This document shows positions 27,286-35,415 of a DNA stretch of 64,000 bases, piece after piece; the stretch's first letter is position 1, and every line of letters begins with the position of its first letter. Source of the DNA: Winogradskyella flava (GTDB taxonomy: Bacteria; Bacteroidota; Bacteroidia; Flavobacteriales; Flavobacteriaceae); NCBI RefSeq assembly GCF_014243395.1, contig NZ_JACLCP010000002.1, positions 310,001 to 374,000 on the forward strand. The letters run 5' to 3'. The notes below the pieces were generated by a model. It did not search any database and was not told where the DNA came from. It saw nothing but the letters and a program-made list of their open reading frames with translations. Made by a program: the position numbers and the translations under genes.

Positions 27286-29400
27286 ATGAAAACGCTATCT
27301 CAATTTCTGATTACTTTATGCTTTGTGACAATTGTCAGTGCCCAAAAATCAAGTAAAATCACCAATGTAACCGTCTATCTTGATGGTGCAGAAATCAATC
27401 GTATGGCAAACATTGATCTTAAGTCTGGTACGACTGAATTTATATTCAATGGCTTATCACCACATATTGAAGAAAGTAGCATCCAAATTTCTGGATTAAA
27501 AGATGCCACAATTCTATCAATAAATTACGGTATCAATTATTTGTCCAAGCAGAAACAAACAGATTCCATCACCAATCTAAGGCAGCAATTAAAATCATTA
27601 GACGACAGCATTCAAACCGAATATGATTTGGTTTCTGGATACAACGAAGAAATAGATCTTATTAAAAGCAACAAACGTTTAAGCAATGAAAATGAAGTCG
27701 TTAATCTAGAAGAACTTAAAAACTTTGCTAAATACTATAGAGAACGGATCACCCAATTGAAAATTTCTATTCATGAGTCCAATAAAAAGGTCGAAACCTT
27801 TGAAGAGCAGCAAAATGACATTAAAAAACAACTCTCTGAATTTAATGTTGATAAAAAAGTTCAGACTGGTGAAATAAAGTTGAAGCTCAATACGAAAAAG
27901 GCTGAGTCACTAGATTTAAAAATCACTTATAATATTAAAAATGCAGGTTGGTTTCCTATTTATGATCTTAAAGCAGAACAAATAAACAGCCCTATAAATT
28001 TAGAATATAAAGCGCATATATTTCAAAATTCTGGTTGCGATTGGAACGATGTAAAACTCACACTGTCCACAAGTGATCCGAATACTAATAATGAAAAGCC
28101 AATTGTTAATCCTAAGTATTTAAATTTTATAAGTGCTTATAGCAATTATCAATCACAGCGTGCTACAAGAAACTATAACTACAAATACAATCCACTGGTT
28201 AAGACCGTAAAAGGTGTTGTAACATCTGCTTCTGATGGTCTTCCATTACCTGGTGTGAATATTATTGAAAAAGGAACATCTAATGGCACTACAACGGACT
28301 TCGATGGAAAATATGCGCTTAAAACCAATGGTGAGAAATATCTAACCTACTCGTATGTAGGCTTTGAAACCGAGACTTTGCCAGTACATTCTAGTATTAT
28401 GAATATAGCAATGAATGAGAATATGGTAGCACTTGATGAAATTGTGGTCGTGGGATATGGTACTTCTTCAGGAAATTCGTCTTATGCAGTATCTTCAGTA
28501 AGCTCTGAAGATATTGTTAGTAGTTTATATGGTAAAGCAGCAGGTGTGACCATTAGAGGAGCCAGGTCTTTGAAAAGCAAAAGTAACATCCTATATATTG
28601 TAGATGGTATTCCGGTAAAAGCAAATGCAGCAAGCAAAATTAATCCAGATAGCATAGAATCCATAGAGGTTTTGAAAGATAGCCAGGCTACAGCACTTTA
28701 TGGCAATCGAGCTGCCAATGGTGTCATAATTATCAATACAGGAAACTCCACTCAAAGAAGAGTTAATGATTTAGGAGTTGTAGTGGAAACAGGCATCACC
28801 AATACACGTTTTGAAATCGATAAAGCCTATTCCATTCCGTCCGATGGTGATGTTACCGTAATTGAAATTGATAAATTTAGTGTGCCAGCCCAATACGATT
28901 ACTTTGCCGCACCAGTTCTAAACGAAAACGTCTTTTTAACAGCCAAAATTGGAAATTGGGAACAATACAACCTACTACCAGCGGAAGCTAATGTTTATTT
29001 TGAGGGTAGTTATTCTGGTAAAACCAACATAAATCCTGGAGCGACAACAGATAGCTTAACCATTTCACTAGGTGTTGATCCAAATATTGTGGTCAAGAGA
29101 ACGCAGCGCAAGGACTATAAGAAGACAACATTAATTGGCAACAATAAAGTGGTCTATAAAGGCTTTGAAATAGAGGTTAGAAACAATAAGCTAGCCAATG
29201 CACAACTAACTTTAGTAGATCGAATTCCAATCGCCCAAAATAGAGATATTAGATTAGATGATATCGAAACTGGAACATCCAGCTACGATAAGGATAAGGG
29301 CATATTAAAATGGCAATTCAACCTAAAGCCAGGTGAAATAGAAAAAGTGGAGCATTCCTACTCCATAAAGTACCCTAGAGGAAAACGTGTTAATCTTTAA
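27286..29400 (+). CDS. DUF4139 (MuiA-like) protein with inserted carboxypeptidase-regulatory and SusC-type plug domains
   Basis: 704-residue exported protein with a mosaic layout. Signal peptide (FLITLCFVTIVSAQ), then a DUF4140-type N-terminal domain (VTVYLDGAEINRMANIDL, about 27-120), a coiled coil (about 100-190) and the first part of DUF4139 (about 200-300). At about 304-488 the sequence switches to the start of a SusC-like TonB receptor: a carboxypeptidase-D regulatory domain (VKGVVTSASDGLPLPGVNII), the SusC linker LDEIVVVGYGTSSG and a TonB plug (VDGIPVKANAASKINPDSIE, ATALYGNRAANGVIIINT). DUF4139 then resumes to the end (LKWQFNLKPGEIEKVEHSYS). No beta-barrel follows the plug. Function unknown; surface or periplasmic scaffolding is a guess. 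Confidence 0.85.
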   Translation: MKTLSQFLITLCFVTIVSAQKSSKITNVTVYLDGAEINRMANIDLKSGTTEFIFNGLSPHIEESSIQISGLKDATILSINYGINYLSKQKQTDSITNLRQQLKSLDDSIQTEYDLVSGYNEEIDLIKSNKRLSNENEVVNLEELKNFAKYYRERITQLKISIHESNKKVETFEEQQNDIKKQLSEFNVDKKVQTGEIKLKLNTKKAESLDLKITYNIKNAGWFPIYDLKAEQINSPINLEYKAHIFQNSGCDWNDVKLTLSTSDPNTNNEKPIVNPKYLNFISAYSNYQSQRATRNYNYKYNPLVKTVKGVVTSASDGLPLPGVNIIEKGTSNGTTTDFDGKYALKTNGEKYLTYSYVGFETETLPVHSSIMNIAMNENMVALDEIVVVGYGTSSGNSSYAVSSVSSEDIVSSLYGKAAGVTIRGARSLKSKSNILYIVDGIPVKANAASKINPDSIESIEVLKDSQATALYGNRAANGVIIINTGNSTQRRVNDLGVVVETGITNTRFEIDKAYSIPSDGDVTVIEIDKFSVPAQYDYFAAPVLNENVFLTAKIGNWEQYNLLPAEANVYFEGSYSGKTNINPGATTDSLTISLGVDPNIVVKRTQRKDYKKTTLIGNNKVVYKGFEIEVRNNKLANAQLTLVDRIPIAQNRDIRLDDIETGTSSYDKDKGILKWQFNLKPGEIEKVEHSYSIKYPRGKRVNL

Positions 29401-29800: not shown

Positions 29801-30961
29801 CTACTTCAAGCTCTTTAGAATGAAGTCCAAATTAGGATTGGTATTATCATTATCGACATAAGCGTCCGTATAATATTTTGGTATAACAGCCAATCCCAAA
29901 TCAATAAGTTTATTCATAGTAGGTATATATTCCTGACTTACTTTACCAGTTAACAATACACCAAGATCATTTCCTGATTTTGCATATTTATAAATGTTTC
30001 TTATACCTCTTAAATACAAATGATCTTTAGTAAAACCACCACCGCGATGTACACGCAATGTTATAACAAATGCCTTATCTCTGTTGAGTTTATGCTGATT
30101 ATGCAATAAATGAAAAGTATCAGAAAAACTATAGCCTTTATTTAAACTATCCACGGCAATTACTCTAAACGCTAATTCCTTTAATCGCTCTATGGTTAAG
30201 CAACCGCTCATGAATTCAGAATACACAGCCAAACCTTCTTGCGTTTCCACATTATTTGGAAAGCCATTTGAAAATACTTTCAGTGGCTGCTCCAATCCAT
30301 TGAATGTCGTCACCATATGCACACCGATTTCGTGGTTAGATAATACCTTTAACTGATTTAAACTGTACTTATGACTTTTTCTTAACACTAAGGTCTGTGT
30401 ATTATTCAGTACCATAGCTGCCGCAGAAAGGTTATTAGATATCTTTATATTGTATTTAAAATCGTAGCGTTTGGAAAATTCTTCAAAATAGTCCTTTGCT
30501 TCTGCTGAATTATACATGGGAAGCATTTCTTCATTAAATTCAGAATTGTCAAAACGAAGAATAAACTTAGCATTCTCAATATCCTTTTCGGTAGGTGTTC
30601 CGAAACTTTTCAGGCTGTTGAAATAGAACTTCCTACCTTGACCAATAGTTTCTATGCACTCAATTAAACCCGAATATTCGTAAATGATATCTTCATACAA
30701 TTGTCTAATATCATCATCTTCTATGCGTTCTAAACGTTGTGAAAAAAATAAACGATGCAATTTATAGCCGTTGAATCTCACCTTTCGGTATTTAAATTCT
30801 GGCTCATAATTGTACTTTGAGGCGTAGAATTTCTTCTTCTCTGAAGCTATGTTAAGGGGATTGATATAATTGAGTAATTCAATATTCTTGACTAATCGAT
30901 TAAGATTGGCATCGATATCAAATAAATCTTGATACTCTTGTGTTGTTTTAATTTGGGACAT
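29801..30961 (-). CDS. DUF1704 zincin-like peptidase (flavohemoglobin expression-modulating QEGLA motif protein)
   Basis: 386 residues. The DUF1704 signature is complete: zinc motif HEIGVH (HExxxH, within VLSNHEIGVHMVTTF) and, 30 residues on, QEGLAVYSEFMSG, the QEGLA motif whose Glu is the likely third ligand. HRGGGFTKDHLYLRG follows. The family is related to the MATCAP carboxypeptidases that trim tubulin tails, so a metallocarboxypeptidase role is plausible here. The name linking it to flavohemoglobin is historical and weak. Last gene of a five-gene minus-strand operon; it overlaps the amidohydrolase gene by 1 bp. Confidence 0.88.
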   Translation of the reverse strand: MSQIKTTQEYQDLFDIDANLNRLVKNIELLNYINPLNIASEKKKFYASKYNYEPEFKYRKVRFNGYKLHRLFFSQRLERIEDDDIRQLYEDIIYEYSGLIECIETIGQGRKFYFNSLKSFGTPTEKDIENAKFILRFDNSEFNEEMLPMYNSAEAKDYFEEFSKRYDFKYNIKISNNLSAAAMVLNNTQTLVLRKSHKYSLNQLKVLSNHEIGVHMVTTFNGLEQPLKVFSNGFPNNVETQEGLAVYSEFMSGCLTIERLKELAFRVIAVDSLNKGYSFSDTFHLLHNQHKLNRDKAFVITLRVHRGGGFTKDHLYLRGIRNIYKYAKSGNDLGVLLTGKVSQEYIPTMNKLIDLGLAVIPKYYTDAYVDNDNTNPNLDFILKSLK

Positions 30962-31791
30962 TACGCTTTAAACCTATTATAAAATTCGATGGCATGTTTA
31001 GGCAAAAGCGTTTTCAATTGTTTCTCTACGGCAGTCACCACTTCCGGGTAGTTTATCTGCTTGTATTCATCACAGTAGACTTTTGCAATTTCAGTTGCCA
31101 AAACTAAGGTATTCTTAAAGTTTTTGGTAATGTATTTTAAAAAATATCCATTGCCCTGAAAAGTATCATTGATTTTAGCCGTTTTCTTAATATCATTAGG
31201 CAATTCAATACTAGCCAAAGTTTGTCGCCAAGATTCCACTTGGTCGCCAAAACGATCATTGTCTATATTAGACGTTCCTAAATTCCAAGTTGGCACTTCC
31301 CTATCCCAACGCTGCCAGTTATAGCTATGCATATCATATACAATGCCGACTTCAAACTTTTCCTCAAGTTTTGAAATTAGCGCATGTACTACTTTATAAA
31401 AATTGGTGTGCTTTTGTAAACTCTTCTCTTTTTCTGATTCTGATAGTGGATTCTTCCAAAGCTCCTTTCCCCAGGCCGTATCAAAAACGGCATTGTCAGG
31501 ATCCCGATTCAGGTCGTATTCAAATCGAGAATCGCATCCTGCGATTAAGATTGGGTGAGATATCACCATAGTCTTGGTTTCAGGATCTTCCTCGTACCAT
31601 CTGTCGTATTCAGAATGTAAGCAATTATCCCAAAGATTTTTTCTAAACTGATGACCATTATGTACAGCAGCACATGCATAATGCACGTACTTATCTATCT
31701 TAAGTGTAAATGAATAATCATCGGAAACCGCATGAAAGGTCTCCTCGTTTTGAATCCTAGTTATTATCTGATCAACGCTTAGTCTTTGCAT
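30961..31791 (-). CDS. N-formylglutamate amidohydrolase family protein
   Basis: 276-residue zinc amidohydrolase of the FGase family. VHYACAAVHNGHQFRKNL supplies the first metal-site His, and the family's D-x-x-R segment follows as SRFEYDLNRDPDNAVFDTAWG. The VYDMHSYNW segment (about 148-156) and the later TFQGNGYFLKYI are also family-like. It is joined by 1-bp overlaps to the TerB-like gene upstream and the DUF1704 peptidase downstream. With no histidine-degradation genes nearby, cleavage of an amide in a peptide or glutathione-like product made by the operon's ATP-grasp enzyme is more likely than N-formylglutamate; that is inference. Confidence 0.85.
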   Translation of the reverse strand: MQRLSVDQIITRIQNEETFHAVSDDYSFTLKIDKYVHYACAAVHNGHQFRKNLWDNCLHSEYDRWYEEDPETKTMVISHPILIAGCDSRFEYDLNRDPDNAVFDTAWGKELWKNPLSESEKEKSLQKHTNFYKVVHALISKLEEKFEVGIVYDMHSYNWQRWDREVPTWNLGTSNIDNDRFGDQVESWRQTLASIELPNDIKKTAKINDTFQGNGYFLKYITKNFKNTLVLATEIAKVYCDEYKQINYPEVVTAVEKQLKTLLPKHAIEFYNRFKA

Positions 31792-32126
31792 TATAATGTT
31801 TTAAATAAACGTTCTAGGGATTTAAGCATATTTCGCTCATTGATATTGAATTCGCCATCAGAAAAGAACAAGATCTTAATATCTGCCATTAGAATTTCAA
31901 CATCGTCTTTATCATAATTATGCTGTCGTAAACTCGTCATGATTTTTTGTATGCCTTGATAATCGTTATCATTATCAAATTCATCATGGATTTCTTGAAA
32001 GGTATCCATATCTACCTTAGAAATAATCACATTACGCTCTTTGTTATCTTCCTTAAAATCTGAATTAGCTGCAAACAACAAAATGTAGGCTACAAGCTCA
32101 TCTCTTGTCCAGTCGATTGTTTTCAT
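31791..32126 (-). CDS. TerB-like small helical protein
   Basis: 111 residues, all helical and acidic. The segment AYILLFAANSDFKEDNKERNVIISKV, then the tail ILFFSDGEFNINERNMLKSL, resemble the repeated 'aD G.....E' half-motifs of TerB-like domains, which bind metal in some members. The assignment is by pattern only. It is third in the operon, 30 bp after the sulfurtransferase and with a 1-bp overlap to the amidohydrolase. Probably an accessory or regulatory subunit for its neighbours. Confidence 0.6.
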   Translation of the reverse strand: MKTIDWTRDELVAYILLFAANSDFKEDNKERNVIISKVDMDTFQEIHDEFDNDNDYQGIQKIMTSLRQHNYDKDDVEILMADIKILFFSDGEFNINERNMLKSLERLFKTL

Positions 32127-32156
32127 CTGTTTAAATAAGTTATTTGGGCATTTATA

Positions 32157-32975
32157 TTATGCTGTTAGAGTTCCATATTCGGTCCATGATCCGTCATAGA
32201 CTACAAGATTATTATAACCACATTGCGTTGCGGCCAATGCCAAAATACATGCTGTAATGCCAGAACCACAACTAAATACTAATATACGTTCTTCTTCTAC
32301 TAAGTTATTAAAGATTTCTGAAAGTTCTTCTTTTGATTTCAATTTGTAGCCATTAAAGAGTTCTGTATATGGCAAGTTTTTGGAATTTGGAATCGTTCCT
32401 CGTCGCAATCCATCTCTTGGTTCATCCACCAAGCATTTAAATCTAGCTTCGGATCTTGCATCCAGAATTAAGGTATTAGTGTCTTGAGAGAATACATTAA
32501 CTCCTTTAAAATCTGTCATTAAGCCAGGAGAATAATAGGCTTCAAAATTGCCTTTAAGGTTAATCTCGTTAGCATAATAATCCATATTAAATCCATTGGC
32601 TTTCCATTCAGGCAAGCCACCATCTAAAACAGCGACATTGTCAAATCCAAATACTTTAAACAACCACCAAGCTCTAGCACTAGAATAAACACCTTTATCA
32701 TCATAAACAACAATGATAGCATTATTATTTACGCCAAGTTTCCGTGCTTCTGTTTGAAATTGATCAGAACTTGGTAATTTACTCGGAAACGTAGCCTTAA
32801 TATCACTAAAGTTCTTCTTAATATCGAAAAATCTGGCACTTGGTATTCTTTCAGTAGAACTGTCTACAACCTTATTAATGGTCGCATCCAGAACGACTAA
32901 TTCCTTAGCGCTAATATGAGATTTGAGCCACTGAACTGTGACTAAAGGTGTTTGAAAATCACTAATGGTTGACAT
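32157..32975 (-). CDS. 3-mercaptopyruvate/thiosulfate sulfurtransferase (two-domain rhodanese)
   Basis: 272-residue tandem rhodanese. The N-terminal inactive domain (about 10-130) contains ATINKVVDSSTERIPSARFF and the family ARAWWLFKVFGFDNVAVLDGG block. The C-terminal catalytic domain carries the active loop VFSCGSGITACILALAA. The CGSG-type loop is that of mercaptopyruvate sulfurtransferases rather than thiosulfate rhodaneses (CRKG). It transfers sulfane sulfur from 3-mercaptopyruvate to a thiol or cyanide acceptor. Position 9 bp after the GshB-like gene links it to thiol chemistry. Confidence 0.9.
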   Translation of the reverse strand: MSTISDFQTPLVTVQWLKSHISAKELVVLDATINKVVDSSTERIPSARFFDIKKNFSDIKATFPSKLPSSDQFQTEARKLGVNNNAIIVVYDDKGVYSSARAWWLFKVFGFDNVAVLDGGLPEWKANGFNMDYYANEINLKGNFEAYYSPGLMTDFKGVNVFSQDTNTLILDARSEARFKCLVDEPRDGLRRGTIPNSKNLPYTELFNGYKLKSKEELSEIFNNLVEEERILVFSCGSGITACILALAATQCGYNNLVVYDGSWTEYGTLTA

Positions 32976-32984
32976 GAGATTTAA

Positions 32985-34022
32985 CTAAGCTTCTTCAACA
33001 GTCTTTCGTAATCTTGTACGTCTATCAAAAGCTTGTAGTTTATCTAGAACCTTGCTTTCCAAAAAGTCAATGACTTTTTCTTCGACCTTGTGCTTATTCT
33101 TGTAAACCTTATTGATATAGGTAATACCACCTGGAGACATGACATTGACCTCTACCAATTTTCCGCCAATAACGTCGATACCAACGAAATAGAGGCCATC
33201 CTTAACCAATTTTGGTCCTATCTGCTTACAAAGAGCCTTTTCAGCCTTAGTTAAAGAATGCTTTTGAACACTTCCACCAGCAGATACATTAGAACGATGA
33301 TCGTCTGAACCAGGAACACGTTTCATAGCGCCAACGGGCTCTCCATTTAATAGTAATATTCTAACATCACCTTGATCCGCACCTTCTATATAATCTTGAA
33401 GAATAACGTAGTTAGACTCACCATCACCAGAAGAAATATAAAAGTCTAGTAGTGAATTAATATTATTCATGGCAGACTTTTCAATAAGAATCACACCAGA
33501 ACCTCCAAAACCATTTAAAGGTTTCAATATCATTTTATCAGACTTGGATTCCTTGATCTGCTTTATCAGATAGTTCTTATTTTTGGAAACATGTGTATTT
33601 GGTATAATATTGCTGTGCGCATCACCAAATGCTGCTGTATAGAGTTTGTTATTTGCCTCCCTCATACCTTGCAGAGAATTCACGATAAAGACGTCATCTT
33701 TAACAGAATCCAGAAAATTAAGCATTATCGGATCCAATGGTGGATTGGCCCTAAAGAAAATAGCATCGAAACCTGCCAAAGGCAGCATTTCTTCCCTCAA
33801 TTTCGCCTTATTATAAAAAGACTTTAGGGTCGACGGTACTTTATCCATCCTATTAACGACATTACAAAACGCATTAGTAACACTGTCTCTTATCGTAAGA
33901 TTTGCAGGTGTGCACATAGCGACACCATGGCCTCGCTTAACACATTCCTTTATTAAGGCTAGGCTTGTATCATTCTCTGGGTCAATATTCTCCCAAGGAT
34001 ACATAATGAAGCAAATATTCAT
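32985..34022 (-). CDS. Glutathione synthase-like ATP-grasp ligase (GshB family)
   Basis: 345-residue ATP-grasp enzyme resembling prokaryotic glutathione synthetase. The N-terminal pre-ATP-grasp domain (MNICFIMYPWENIDPENDTS) is followed by FIVNSLQGMREANNKLYTA, the nucleotide loop MILKPLNGFGGSGVILIE (about 164-181), DVRILLLNGEPVGAMKRVP and the Mg-binding end VEVNVMSPGGITYINKVYK. GshB joins gamma-glutamylcysteine and glycine, but no gshA is near. The neighbours (amidohydrolase, zincin, sulfurtransferase) suggest it may ligate a different thiol or peptide. First gene of the operon. Family certain, substrate not. Confidence 0.88.
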   Translation of the reverse strand: MNICFIMYPWENIDPENDTSLALIKECVKRGHGVAMCTPANLTIRDSVTNAFCNVVNRMDKVPSTLKSFYNKAKLREEMLPLAGFDAIFFRANPPLDPIMLNFLDSVKDDVFIVNSLQGMREANNKLYTAAFGDAHSNIIPNTHVSKNKNYLIKQIKESKSDKMILKPLNGFGGSGVILIEKSAMNNINSLLDFYISSGDGESNYVILQDYIEGADQGDVRILLLNGEPVGAMKRVPGSDDHRSNVSAGGSVQKHSLTKAEKALCKQIGPKLVKDGLYFVGIDVIGGKLVEVNVMSPGGITYINKVYKNKHKVEEKVIDFLESKVLDKLQAFDRRTRLRKTVEEA

Positions 34023-34089: not shown

Positions 34090-35415
34090 TTATTTCACTT
34101 CCTCGTAATGATCATCCCATTCTTTAGGTCTAGGATCATCATGAAGTTTGTTCAATGATTTGGCGACCATCATAGATACCGTTGCATCGCCCGTAACATT
34201 AACAACCGTTCTGCACATGTCCAATGGTCTATCTACTGCAAAAATTAAGGCTAGTCCTATTGGCAACAACTCCGCTGGAAACCCAATAGATTCCAAGACA
34301 ATGACTAACATAACCATCCCTGCACTAGGAACTGCCGCACTACCAATAGAGGCTAAAAGTGCGGTTAAAACTATGATTAATTGATTTGTAAATGTTAAGC
34401 CATCTGGCCAGATCACTTGCATGATAAACACAGCTGCAATACCTTGATATAAACTGGTTCCATCCATATTTACTGTGGCTCCAACGGGCAATACAAAACC
34501 AGAAACTTCCTTATCCACTCCTAAATGTTCTTCAACACGTTCCATAGTGACAGGCAAGGTTGCTGCGCTACTACTCGTTGAGAATGCTAATAACTGTGCA
34601 GGACTTATTTTATTTAAGAACCACATTGGTGATTTTTTCACAAAGACCTTAATTAGGATTAAATAGAATCCAATCATTAGTAGTAAGCCACCAACAACAC
34701 ACAAGGCATACTGCAACAATTTGAGTAAAATTTCAGTATCGTCAAAAGCAATAATTACATTCGCCATTAAAGCAAATACCGCATAAGGTGCAAATAACAT
34801 AATGAGATCTACCATTTTCATAACAACTTCATTAAGCGAATCGAAAATATCTATCATGGGTTTGGCTTTCTTTTCACCAATTAGCAATAAGCAAATACCA
34901 ACAAAAAGAGCAAAAAATATAATCTGAAGCATTTTAGCTTCTCCCATGGCTTGAAAAATATTACTTGGAAATATGTCTACTAAAGCCTGCAAAGGACCTG
35001 CATCTTGCTGTGCACTTGCCTTGGCTAATTTATCCGTGACTCCAGCATCATTTTCATATTTTATTTTAATCTTTTCTATAGTATCCTGAGGCATTCCTGT
35101 TCCAGGCTTTACCAGATTTACTATTGATAAACCAATGATTATAGCTACAAGTGTTGTACCTACATAAATGGCAATAGTCCGCAATCCCATATCCCGAATT
35201 TTAGAAATATCCTTTAAATCGGATATGCCCTTAATCAAAGAGGCCAAGATCAATGGCACTGCTATCAATTTTAAAAGATTTATAAATATGGTTCCAAAAG
35301 GAGCAATCCAATCCGTTACAAACTGCTGACCACTAACTGAATTCATAATGAATCCAAAGATGATACCCAATACCATTCCTATAATAATCTTCCAATGTAA
35401 TGCGAGTTTTTTCAT
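34090..35415 (-). CDS. Dicarboxylate/amino acid:cation symporter (DAACS family)
   Basis: 441-residue inner-membrane symporter for glutamate, aspartate or C4-dicarboxylates, driven by Na+ or H+. The length and the long hydrophobic helices fit GltP/GltPh. Signature pieces: LLAFSTSSSAATLPVTMERVE (serine-rich hairpin HP1), GATVNMDGTSLYQGIAA (NMDGT motif in TM7) and the C-terminal DRPLDMCRTVVNVTGDA (TM8 substrate residues). Transcribed separately from the GshB operon by about 70 bp. Likely solute: an acidic amino acid, not resolved further. Confidence 0.94.
   Translation of the reverse strand: MKKLALHWKIIIGMVLGIIFGFIMNSVSGQQFVTDWIAPFGTIFINLLKLIAVPLILASLIKGISDLKDISKIRDMGLRTIAIYVGTTLVAIIIGLSIVNLVKPGTGMPQDTIEKIKIKYENDAGVTDKLAKASAQQDAGPLQALVDIFPSNIFQAMGEAKMLQIIFFALFVGICLLLIGEKKAKPMIDIFDSLNEVVMKMVDLIMLFAPYAVFALMANVIIAFDDTEILLKLLQYALCVVGGLLLMIGFYLILIKVFVKKSPMWFLNKISPAQLLAFSTSSSAATLPVTMERVEEHLGVDKEVSGFVLPVGATVNMDGTSLYQGIAAVFIMQVIWPDGLTFTNQLIIVLTALLASIGSAAVPSAGMVMLVIVLESIGFPAELLPIGLALIFAVDRPLDMCRTVVNVTGDATVSMMVAKSLNKLHDDPRPKEWDDHYEEVK

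Follow-up and report, generated by a model that had tools for sequence, protein, structure and literature searches.

What does a gene annotated as a glutathione synthetase do when it lies beside genes for an amidohydrolase and a putative carboxypeptidase? This question is raised by a string of five minus-strand genes in a 64,000-nucleotide stretch of the Winogradskyella flava genome (contig NZ_JACLCP010000002.1, positions 310,001 to 374,000; this whole stretch is called the window below). Three of the five encode a GshB-like ATP-grasp amide ligase of the PRK12458 subfamily (345 amino acids [aa], 32985-34022), a zinc amidohydrolase of the N-formylglutamate amidohydrolase (FGase) family with an M14-like fold (276 aa, 30961-31791), and a MATCAP/DUF1704 zincin, or QEGLA protein, that is a putative carboxypeptidase (386 aa, 29801-30961). 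These are the first, second and third core genes of a module, here called the trio, whose members usually travel together in bacteria. On balance, we favor the view that the trio is a dedicated cassette that writes and erases a carboxyl-end amide bond on a peptide or peptide tail.

The association of the three genes is clearest in a sample of 296 genomes from the phylum, which was queried for MATCAP and for the ligase subfamily alike. MATCAP is found in 16 of these genomes, and the ligase subfamily, at more than 390 bits, in 15 (14 above the cut-off of 408 and one, G002, at 396.5; the next score is 214.8). All 15 ligase genomes lie within the 16 MATCAP genomes, with 35 to 2155 bases between the two genes, counted from the nearer ligase copy where two exist. 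An FGase gene accompanies the pair in 13 of the 15, the window counted. The sixteenth MATCAP genome (G186) has a divergent, solitary MATCAP (L020). A p-value for the co-occurrence (2.6e-24 over the 296 genomes) takes no account of relatedness and carries no weight in our argument. In a survey of named genomes, at least 592 stretches matched and 580 encode relatives; the best 80 loci, which judged by their names are from Flavobacteriaceae and other Bacteroidota, were kept (one, L055, is cut by a contig end). Ligase, FGase and MATCAP are on one strand within 6.5 kb in 74 of these best 80 loci, including one (L081) in which the FGase is split in two. With starts called mechanically, the spacing between FGase and MATCAP in the best 80 loci has a median of -1 base and is within 60 bases in 66 of 75 cases.

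The module comes in two arrangements. In the first type, which is that of the window, the ligase is followed by the FGase and then by a MATCAP of about 390 aa. In the second type, the MATCAP is longer, at about 610-640 aa, and is found with an FGase or AstE-like protein and with a ligase of the second type. Sinorhizobium and Aminobacter, both alphaproteobacteria, carry the second type in the order FGase-MATCAP-ligase. Two hybrid loci (L025 and L026) have two ligases, one of each type, flanking one FGase and one long MATCAP (L025:9642-11480). At another locus (L024:9132-11135, genome G045), a single 667-aa open reading frame (ORF) fuses an FGase (aa 37-175 matched) to a MATCAP (aa 324-651), and a first-type ligase is encoded directly upstream. 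A search of plasmids with a long MATCAP matched 127 of 72,556 records; of five that were opened, three contain the trio and two a solitary MATCAP.

The ligase belongs to the PRK12458 "glutathione synthetase" subfamily of NCBIfam (464.6 bits, cut-off 408), and its two Pfam domains are PF02955 (GSH-S_ATP, 186.5 bits) and PF02951 (GSH-S_N, 86.4 bits). It fails the cut-off of the GshB equivalog TIGR01380 (237.7 bits, cut-off 299.05), and its closest solved relative is E. coli GshB (1gsa, E 4.7e-40). In 82 first-type ligases, residues K167, the GGSG loop at 173-176, D283, E291 and N293, which we take to be ATP-grasp and metal-site residues, are kept at 97% or more; here, as for the FGase and MATCAP below, the aligned sequences were picked by score and length. 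A tree of 29 ATP-grasp proteins splits the first-type from the second-type trio ligases (support 92/99) and places E. coli GshB with two Bacteroidota relatives in a separate clade (99/100). The window ligase clusters with 13 other first-type trio ligases, and the deeper joins of the tree carry long-branch warnings.

The FGase matches PF05013 at 45.4 bits (cut-off 28.9) and scores far under the HutG equivalog cut-off (17.7 vs 278.75 bits). Searching solved structures with its sequence gave one match, at chance level; a fold search did find FGases. The AlphaFold model (pLDDT 93) resembles the N-formylglutamate amidohydrolases 2q7s (Z 22.8) and 2odf (Z 20.4), A-type carboxypeptidases (Z 10-11.6), succinylglutamate desuccinylase (10.7) and a phage poly-gamma-glutamate hydrolase (10.0). 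Because the model matches structures of both classes, the FGase and the AstE-like protein that can take its place have related M14-like folds. H44, H155 and E234, together with their surroundings, are conserved in 82 FGases, and the zinc ligands are presumably among them.

The third protein matches PF08014 (334.5 bits, cut-off 27). It contains the motifs HEIGVH (210-215) and QEG (241-243), and H210, E211, H215 and E242 are each conserved in at least 97% of 87 short-form sequences. These motifs correspond to the HExxxH and EEG of human TMCP1/MATCAP1 and align with the HEIGTH of 7z5g, the Glu of which is, by our reading, the E281 of the MATCAP1/TMCP papers. A profile comparison with 7z5g gave E 3.3e-15. 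According to two articles, human MATCAP1/TMCP1 and TMCP2 are metallocarboxypeptidases that take off the last tyrosine of tubulin and further residues; both also remove polyglutamylation, and TMCP2 is termed a highly efficient deglutamylase (PMC10499314, PMC13269789). The long MATCAPs have about 210 extra N-terminal residues. Most of this segment can be aligned with FGase, though weakly, and the DxHS motif of FGase is absent from it. A comparison by hhalign gave 94% and E 9.6e-8 (8 vs 84 sequences), and a repeat with 10 long MATCAPs, a stricter alignment and another FGase alignment gave 18% and E 1.3e-3. Against six second-type FGases alone the value was E 0.028, and none of ten controls, nine with other families and one with a reversed FGase profile, did better than E 0.18. 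These values are at most suggestive of a dead FGase domain, and our main argument does not rest on it.

We arrive at the cassette from the combination of an ATP-grasp peptide ligase, a carboxypeptidase and a hydrolase of acidic amides, for which the simplest reading is a system that forms and breaks one carboxyl-end amide bond. As in other ATP-grasp enzymes, the GshB-like ligase would phosphorylate a carboxylate with ATP and join an amino acid to it. The MATCAP zincin, by analogy with the MATCAP/TMCP family, would take the C-terminal residue off the product or off a longer peptide. The M14-like FGase, judged by the FGase and AstE families, would hydrolyze an amide or acyl linkage at a residue of the acidic (Glu or Asp) type, and its role might lie in preparing the acceptor or in recycling the product. 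We infer this chemistry, and that the substrate is acidic, from family membership. An earlier account made from the letters of the window (the sequence-only reading) had proposed a peptide ligase with two hydrolases, and profile matches and conserved motifs agree with it. Its assignments of the ATP-grasp, sulfurtransferase, FGase and DUF1704 families likewise hold up against profiles, and its TerB-like label finds some support in a predicted fold.

Several observations weigh against a writer/eraser cassette: MATCAP can occur without its partners, the FGase can be replaced, and a link to glutathione has points in its favor. To our knowledge, moreover, no substrate or reaction has been assigned to any bacterial member of the trio. 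In five of the best 80 loci (L086, L102, L107, L110 and L113, from three Arenibacter, one Flagellimonas and one Muricauda), MATCAP is kept without ligase and FGase and directly follows the symporter gene. The ligase subfamily was not found anywhere in these five genomes (best score 98.7 bits, under the cut-off), nor was FGase at E 0.001; FGase is present in three of three comparison genomes (two Flagellimonas and one Ulvibacterium; no Arenibacter). The MATCAP zinc motif is intact in L102 and L113, the two reduced-locus sequences inspected. Thus, ligase and FGase are missing together while MATCAP can remain. Lone MATCAPs are also found in G186, a Pseudoalteromonas and Legionella adelaidensis, and these, with the reduced loci, indicate that MATCAP can do without the ligase. 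Such cases would be expected if the locus held two subsystems with a loose link, in which ligase and FGase make a product of their own and MATCAP is a general carboxypeptidase of the cytoplasm that just happens to share their transcript. We consider this unlikely, given that none of the 15 ligase genomes in the phylum sample lacks MATCAP and that FGase and MATCAP are fused in L024. A better alternative, though still a somewhat doubtful one, is a small-molecule pathway in which the ligase product is a free dipeptide or N-acyl-peptide, such as an osmolyte or a signal, and FGase and MATCAP carry out one-way deblocking and trimming, with no reversal. GshB-like enzymes work on small molecules, and the hybrid loci L025 and L026, in which a single FGase and a single MATCAP are flanked by two ligases, are as would be expected for two successive ligations. 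An AstE/AspA-like deacylase takes the place of FGase in two of the 15 ligase genomes, L034 and L032; in L032 its gene is on the opposite strand. In addition, a QEGLA motif protein gene of Photobacterium damselae (A0J47_RS17025) is listed in PMC10308900 as 27.5-fold up at 1% vs 3% NaCl, and a link between MATCAP and osmotic state is possible. However, the MATCAP-family enzymes with established activity trim protein tails, as PMC10499314 describes, and no further gene was traced at the trio besides those for the symporter, the sulfurtransferase and the TerB-like protein, the remaining ORFs that flank the 80 loci being unannotated.

The remaining alternative is a pathway for glutathione or another thiol, with accessory genes and with sulfur supplied by the sulfurtransferase. 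The NCBIfam label of the ligase agrees with it, and one of the two GshB equivalog cut-offs is passed (NF003573 glutathione synthase, 284.1 bits, cut-off 272). In the window, the genes between those for ligase and FGase include one for a 3-mercaptopyruvate sulfurtransferase (MPST), and at one locus (L181) genes that look like those of an ergothioneine-type pathway occupy the place of FGase and MATCAP. A GCS2 (PF04107) gene is found in 6 of 40 related genomes, taken from those of the 80 best loci; one of the 6 is the reduced L107. The other GshA family, Glu_cys_ligase (PF04262), is found in none of the 40, which include three reduced genomes (L102, L107 and L113), and neither family has a match in the genome of the window, which is 99.95% complete. 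That genome does encode a member of the bacillithiol synthase family, BshC (463.7 bits). Moreover, 10 of 12 loci that show none of the trio still have MPST. A further argument comes from Sinorhizobium meliloti, in which pSymB of strain 1021 carries a second-type trio: PMC7063052 reports that a gshB mutant has no glutathione (GSH) and high gamma-glutamylcysteine (gamma-EC). The pSymB ligase, if expressed, thus makes no detectable glutathione even with the supposed substrate in excess. This argument is tempered by the fact that the pSymB ligase is of the second type and only 31% identical to that of the window, that its gene may be silent in the mutant, and that the mutant was made in strain 2011, for which a pSymB region in common with 1021 is assumed. 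Together, the lack of both gshA families, the presence of bshC and the S. meliloti mutant make glutathione synthesis unlikely; glutathione is probably not the product of the trio, and we regard a thiol pathway as very improbable. The sequence-only reading had noted that no gshA was near and had judged ordinary glutathione synthesis unlikely, while allowing that a gshA elsewhere in the cell could change this; no match to either gshA family was found in the whole genome. The writer/eraser cassette remains the reading that we prefer.

The trio is embedded in a longer gene string in the window. Between ligase and FGase are genes for a 3-mercaptopyruvate sulfurtransferase-like protein with a Rhodanese domain (272 aa, 32157-32975) and for a TerB-like protein predicted to fold as six helices (111 aa, 31791-32126), both on the minus strand. 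Adjacent ORFs overlap by one base at 31791 and at 30961, and there are gaps of 9 bases between ligase and sulfurtransferase and of 30 bases between sulfurtransferase and the TerB-like gene. An ORF list confirms the coordinates, overlaps and gaps in the sequence-only reading exactly, and strand and spacing bear out its claim of one gene string; its listing of five genes was correct but omitted a co-directional gene for an SDF-family symporter (34090-35415, minus strand), which ends 67 bases upstream of the ligase start and is possibly the first gene of the transcript. We infer from the spacing that the genes are transcribed as a single unit. Promoter scans were uninformative and no better than shuffles (2 matches vs 4.9 expected and 23 vs 26.2 expected), and six terminator-like sites were found vs 3.0 expected.

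The nearest named relatives are in Winogradskyella (MATCAP identity 93%). Compared with four Winogradskyella loci, nonsynonymous divergence (dN) is 0.035-0.12 for ligase, FGase, TerB-like protein and MATCAP, and synonymous divergence (dS) is at least 1.1 or not computable. Synonymous sites are close to saturation or past it, yet the proteins have changed little, and so these are real genes under purifying selection; dN/dS ratios are not given because dS is saturated or not computable in many pairs. The sulfurtransferase has a dN of 0.22-0.24 over the same four loci, about three to six times that of ligase and MATCAP (0.035-0.066).

The sulfurtransferase, the TerB-like protein and the symporter are most likely residents of the neighborhood rather than parts of the trio. 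The sulfurtransferase scores 217 bits, below the NCBIfam 3-mercaptopyruvate sulfurtransferase cut-off of 250; its best solved match is SseA (1urh, E 2.2e-51), and the active-site loop C236-G-S-G is conserved in at least 97% of 34 sequences. The TerB-like protein has no Pfam or NCBIfam match, PF05099 included, and a homologue in L028 reaches 16.9 bits with PF05099, under the cut-off of 24.4. Its sequence found matches at chance level only among solved structures. The AlphaFold model has six helices (pLDDT 88). By Foldseek it matches 2h5n, a Porphyromonas protein of unknown function, with a probability of 1.00 but E 0.2, and it matches the tellurite resistance protein 2ou3 with Z 8.7 and a root-mean-square deviation of 3.3 over 100 residues, a Z that chance can yield for helical models. 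With these two as the nearest structures, the TerB-like label seems fair but unproved. The closest NCBIfam model for the symporter is GltP, with a score far below cut-off. Relatives of the symporter, paralogues included, are found in 115 of 120 genomes of the family at E 1e-60 or better. Among the 30 best symporter loci, that of the window included, aroC is within 1.5 kb in 24, the ligase in 16 and both in 13. Of the 14 without a ligase within 1.5 kb, 12 have none of the trio and two have all three members, as seen in the 12-14 kb fetched; in the 12, the trio was looked for in that stretch only and not elsewhere in the genomes.

In 10 of these 12 trio-less loci, the sulfurtransferase gene is immediately beside the symporter gene or one gene further away, and in one of the 10 the TerB-like gene is there too. 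Among the best 80 named loci, the sulfurtransferase is found in 28, the TerB-like gene in 13 and the symporter in 63. Because these genes persist in trio-less loci, we regard them as the resident neighborhood, in which the trio is optional. The sequence-only reading had treated the five genes as one set that can also sulfur-modify a small thiol or peptide. Ligase, FGase and MATCAP do recur together; a sulfur-modifying role is not supported, given the trio-less loci that keep the sulfurtransferase and its presence in only 28 of the 80 related loci. We reject a functional unit of five genes, since MPST, TerB and the symporter occur at loci that lack the trio, and the trio occurs at loci that lack them. 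The sulfurtransferase and the TerB-like protein are more probably syntenic passengers, although co-transcription in the window could link them to the trio. The idea that the symporter belongs to the trio and points to a Glu or Asp substrate is weakened by its near-universal relatives and by the trio-less loci. At L181 (L181:5594-9121), the genes behind aroC, symporter, sulfurtransferase and TerB encode FMN_red, FGE-sulfatase/DinB_2 and Methyltransf_33 proteins; they look like another small-molecule module at the same spot.

A separate observation concerns a plus-strand gene of the window at 27286-29400. It encodes a MuiA-type DUF4140/DUF4139 protein in which a CarboxypepD_reg_2 and TonB-plug segment (about aa 306-490) is inserted inside DUF4139. 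The insert resembles the start of SusC/RagA porins.

Our literature search found no publication describing the ligase-FGase-MATCAP trio. In PMC4431377, the terms DUF1704, zincin, metallopeptidase, amidohydrolase and TerB are all absent, as are peptidase, glutathione synthetase, GshB, amidohydrolase, DUF and succinylglutamate in PMC2922099. In public records, members of the ligase subfamily are called "glutathione synthetase" or "glutathione synthase", and bacterial MATCAPs are called "flavohemoglobin expression-modulating QEGLA motif protein". We suspect that the glutathione name is wrong for the trio ligase and that ligase and MATCAP work in the same, still unsolved pathway. Interest in the MATCAP family grew with the discovery that its members in animals trim the tails of tubulin, and a bacterial MATCAP beside its own ligase offers a simple setting in which to learn the function of the family, testable in Sinorhizobium meliloti, a much-used laboratory species.

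How does the trio compare with known systems? Iyer et al. are said to have predicted, in Mol. BioSyst. in 2009, bacterial amidoligase/peptidase operons, which would share with the trio the concept of an ATP-grasp ligase coupled to a peptidase and might even include this very neighborhood. The sequence-only reading likewise mentions ATP-grasp genes with DUF1704 and amidohydrolase neighbors as a theme of comparative genomics. Beside such operons, the trio stands out by a delimited core, separable from its passengers, and by evidence against the glutathione label. The window ligase shares with E. coli GshB (1gsa) the two-domain ATP-grasp family and the ATP-grasp and metal-site motifs. It differs in having RANPP in place of the N-terminal motif RKDPP, in falling outside the GshB clade, in having no gshA partner and in adjoining MATCAP in 15 of 15 genomes. 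The window FGase has its Pfam family and predicted fold in common with HutG/FGase (2q7s, 2odf), but it scores far beneath the HutG equivalog cut-off. The third protein shares the PF08014 family and the HExxxH and EG motifs with the tubulin carboxypeptidases MATCAP1/TMCP1 and TMCP2; in contrast to them, it is bacterial, would not be expected to have tubulin as a substrate and is encoded beside a putative writer.

The comparison can be extended to the modification of tubulin tails in eukaryotes by TTL/TTLL, CCP and MATCAP/TMCP enzymes. TTL is an ATP-grasp enzyme and CCP an M14 enzyme, and the fold classes of ATP-grasp ligase, M14-like hydrolase and MATCAP zincin are common to this system and the trio. 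By this analogy, the trio might be a bacterial counterpart of the tubulin-tail code, with an ATP-grasp writer and two erasers, the M14-like hydrolase and MATCAP, that reversibly attach and detach residues, Glu or an aromatic one, at the C-terminus of a protein or peptide; here MATCAP would be the more general part, and the ligase and FGase dedicated partners. We hold this more specific proposal to be unlikely as it stands. If true, it would put the pairing of ligase and MATCAP in bacteria, outside the context of tubulin. The trio ligase is from the GshB branch and not from that of TTL, and what we propose is a parallel between systems, with no claim of homology.

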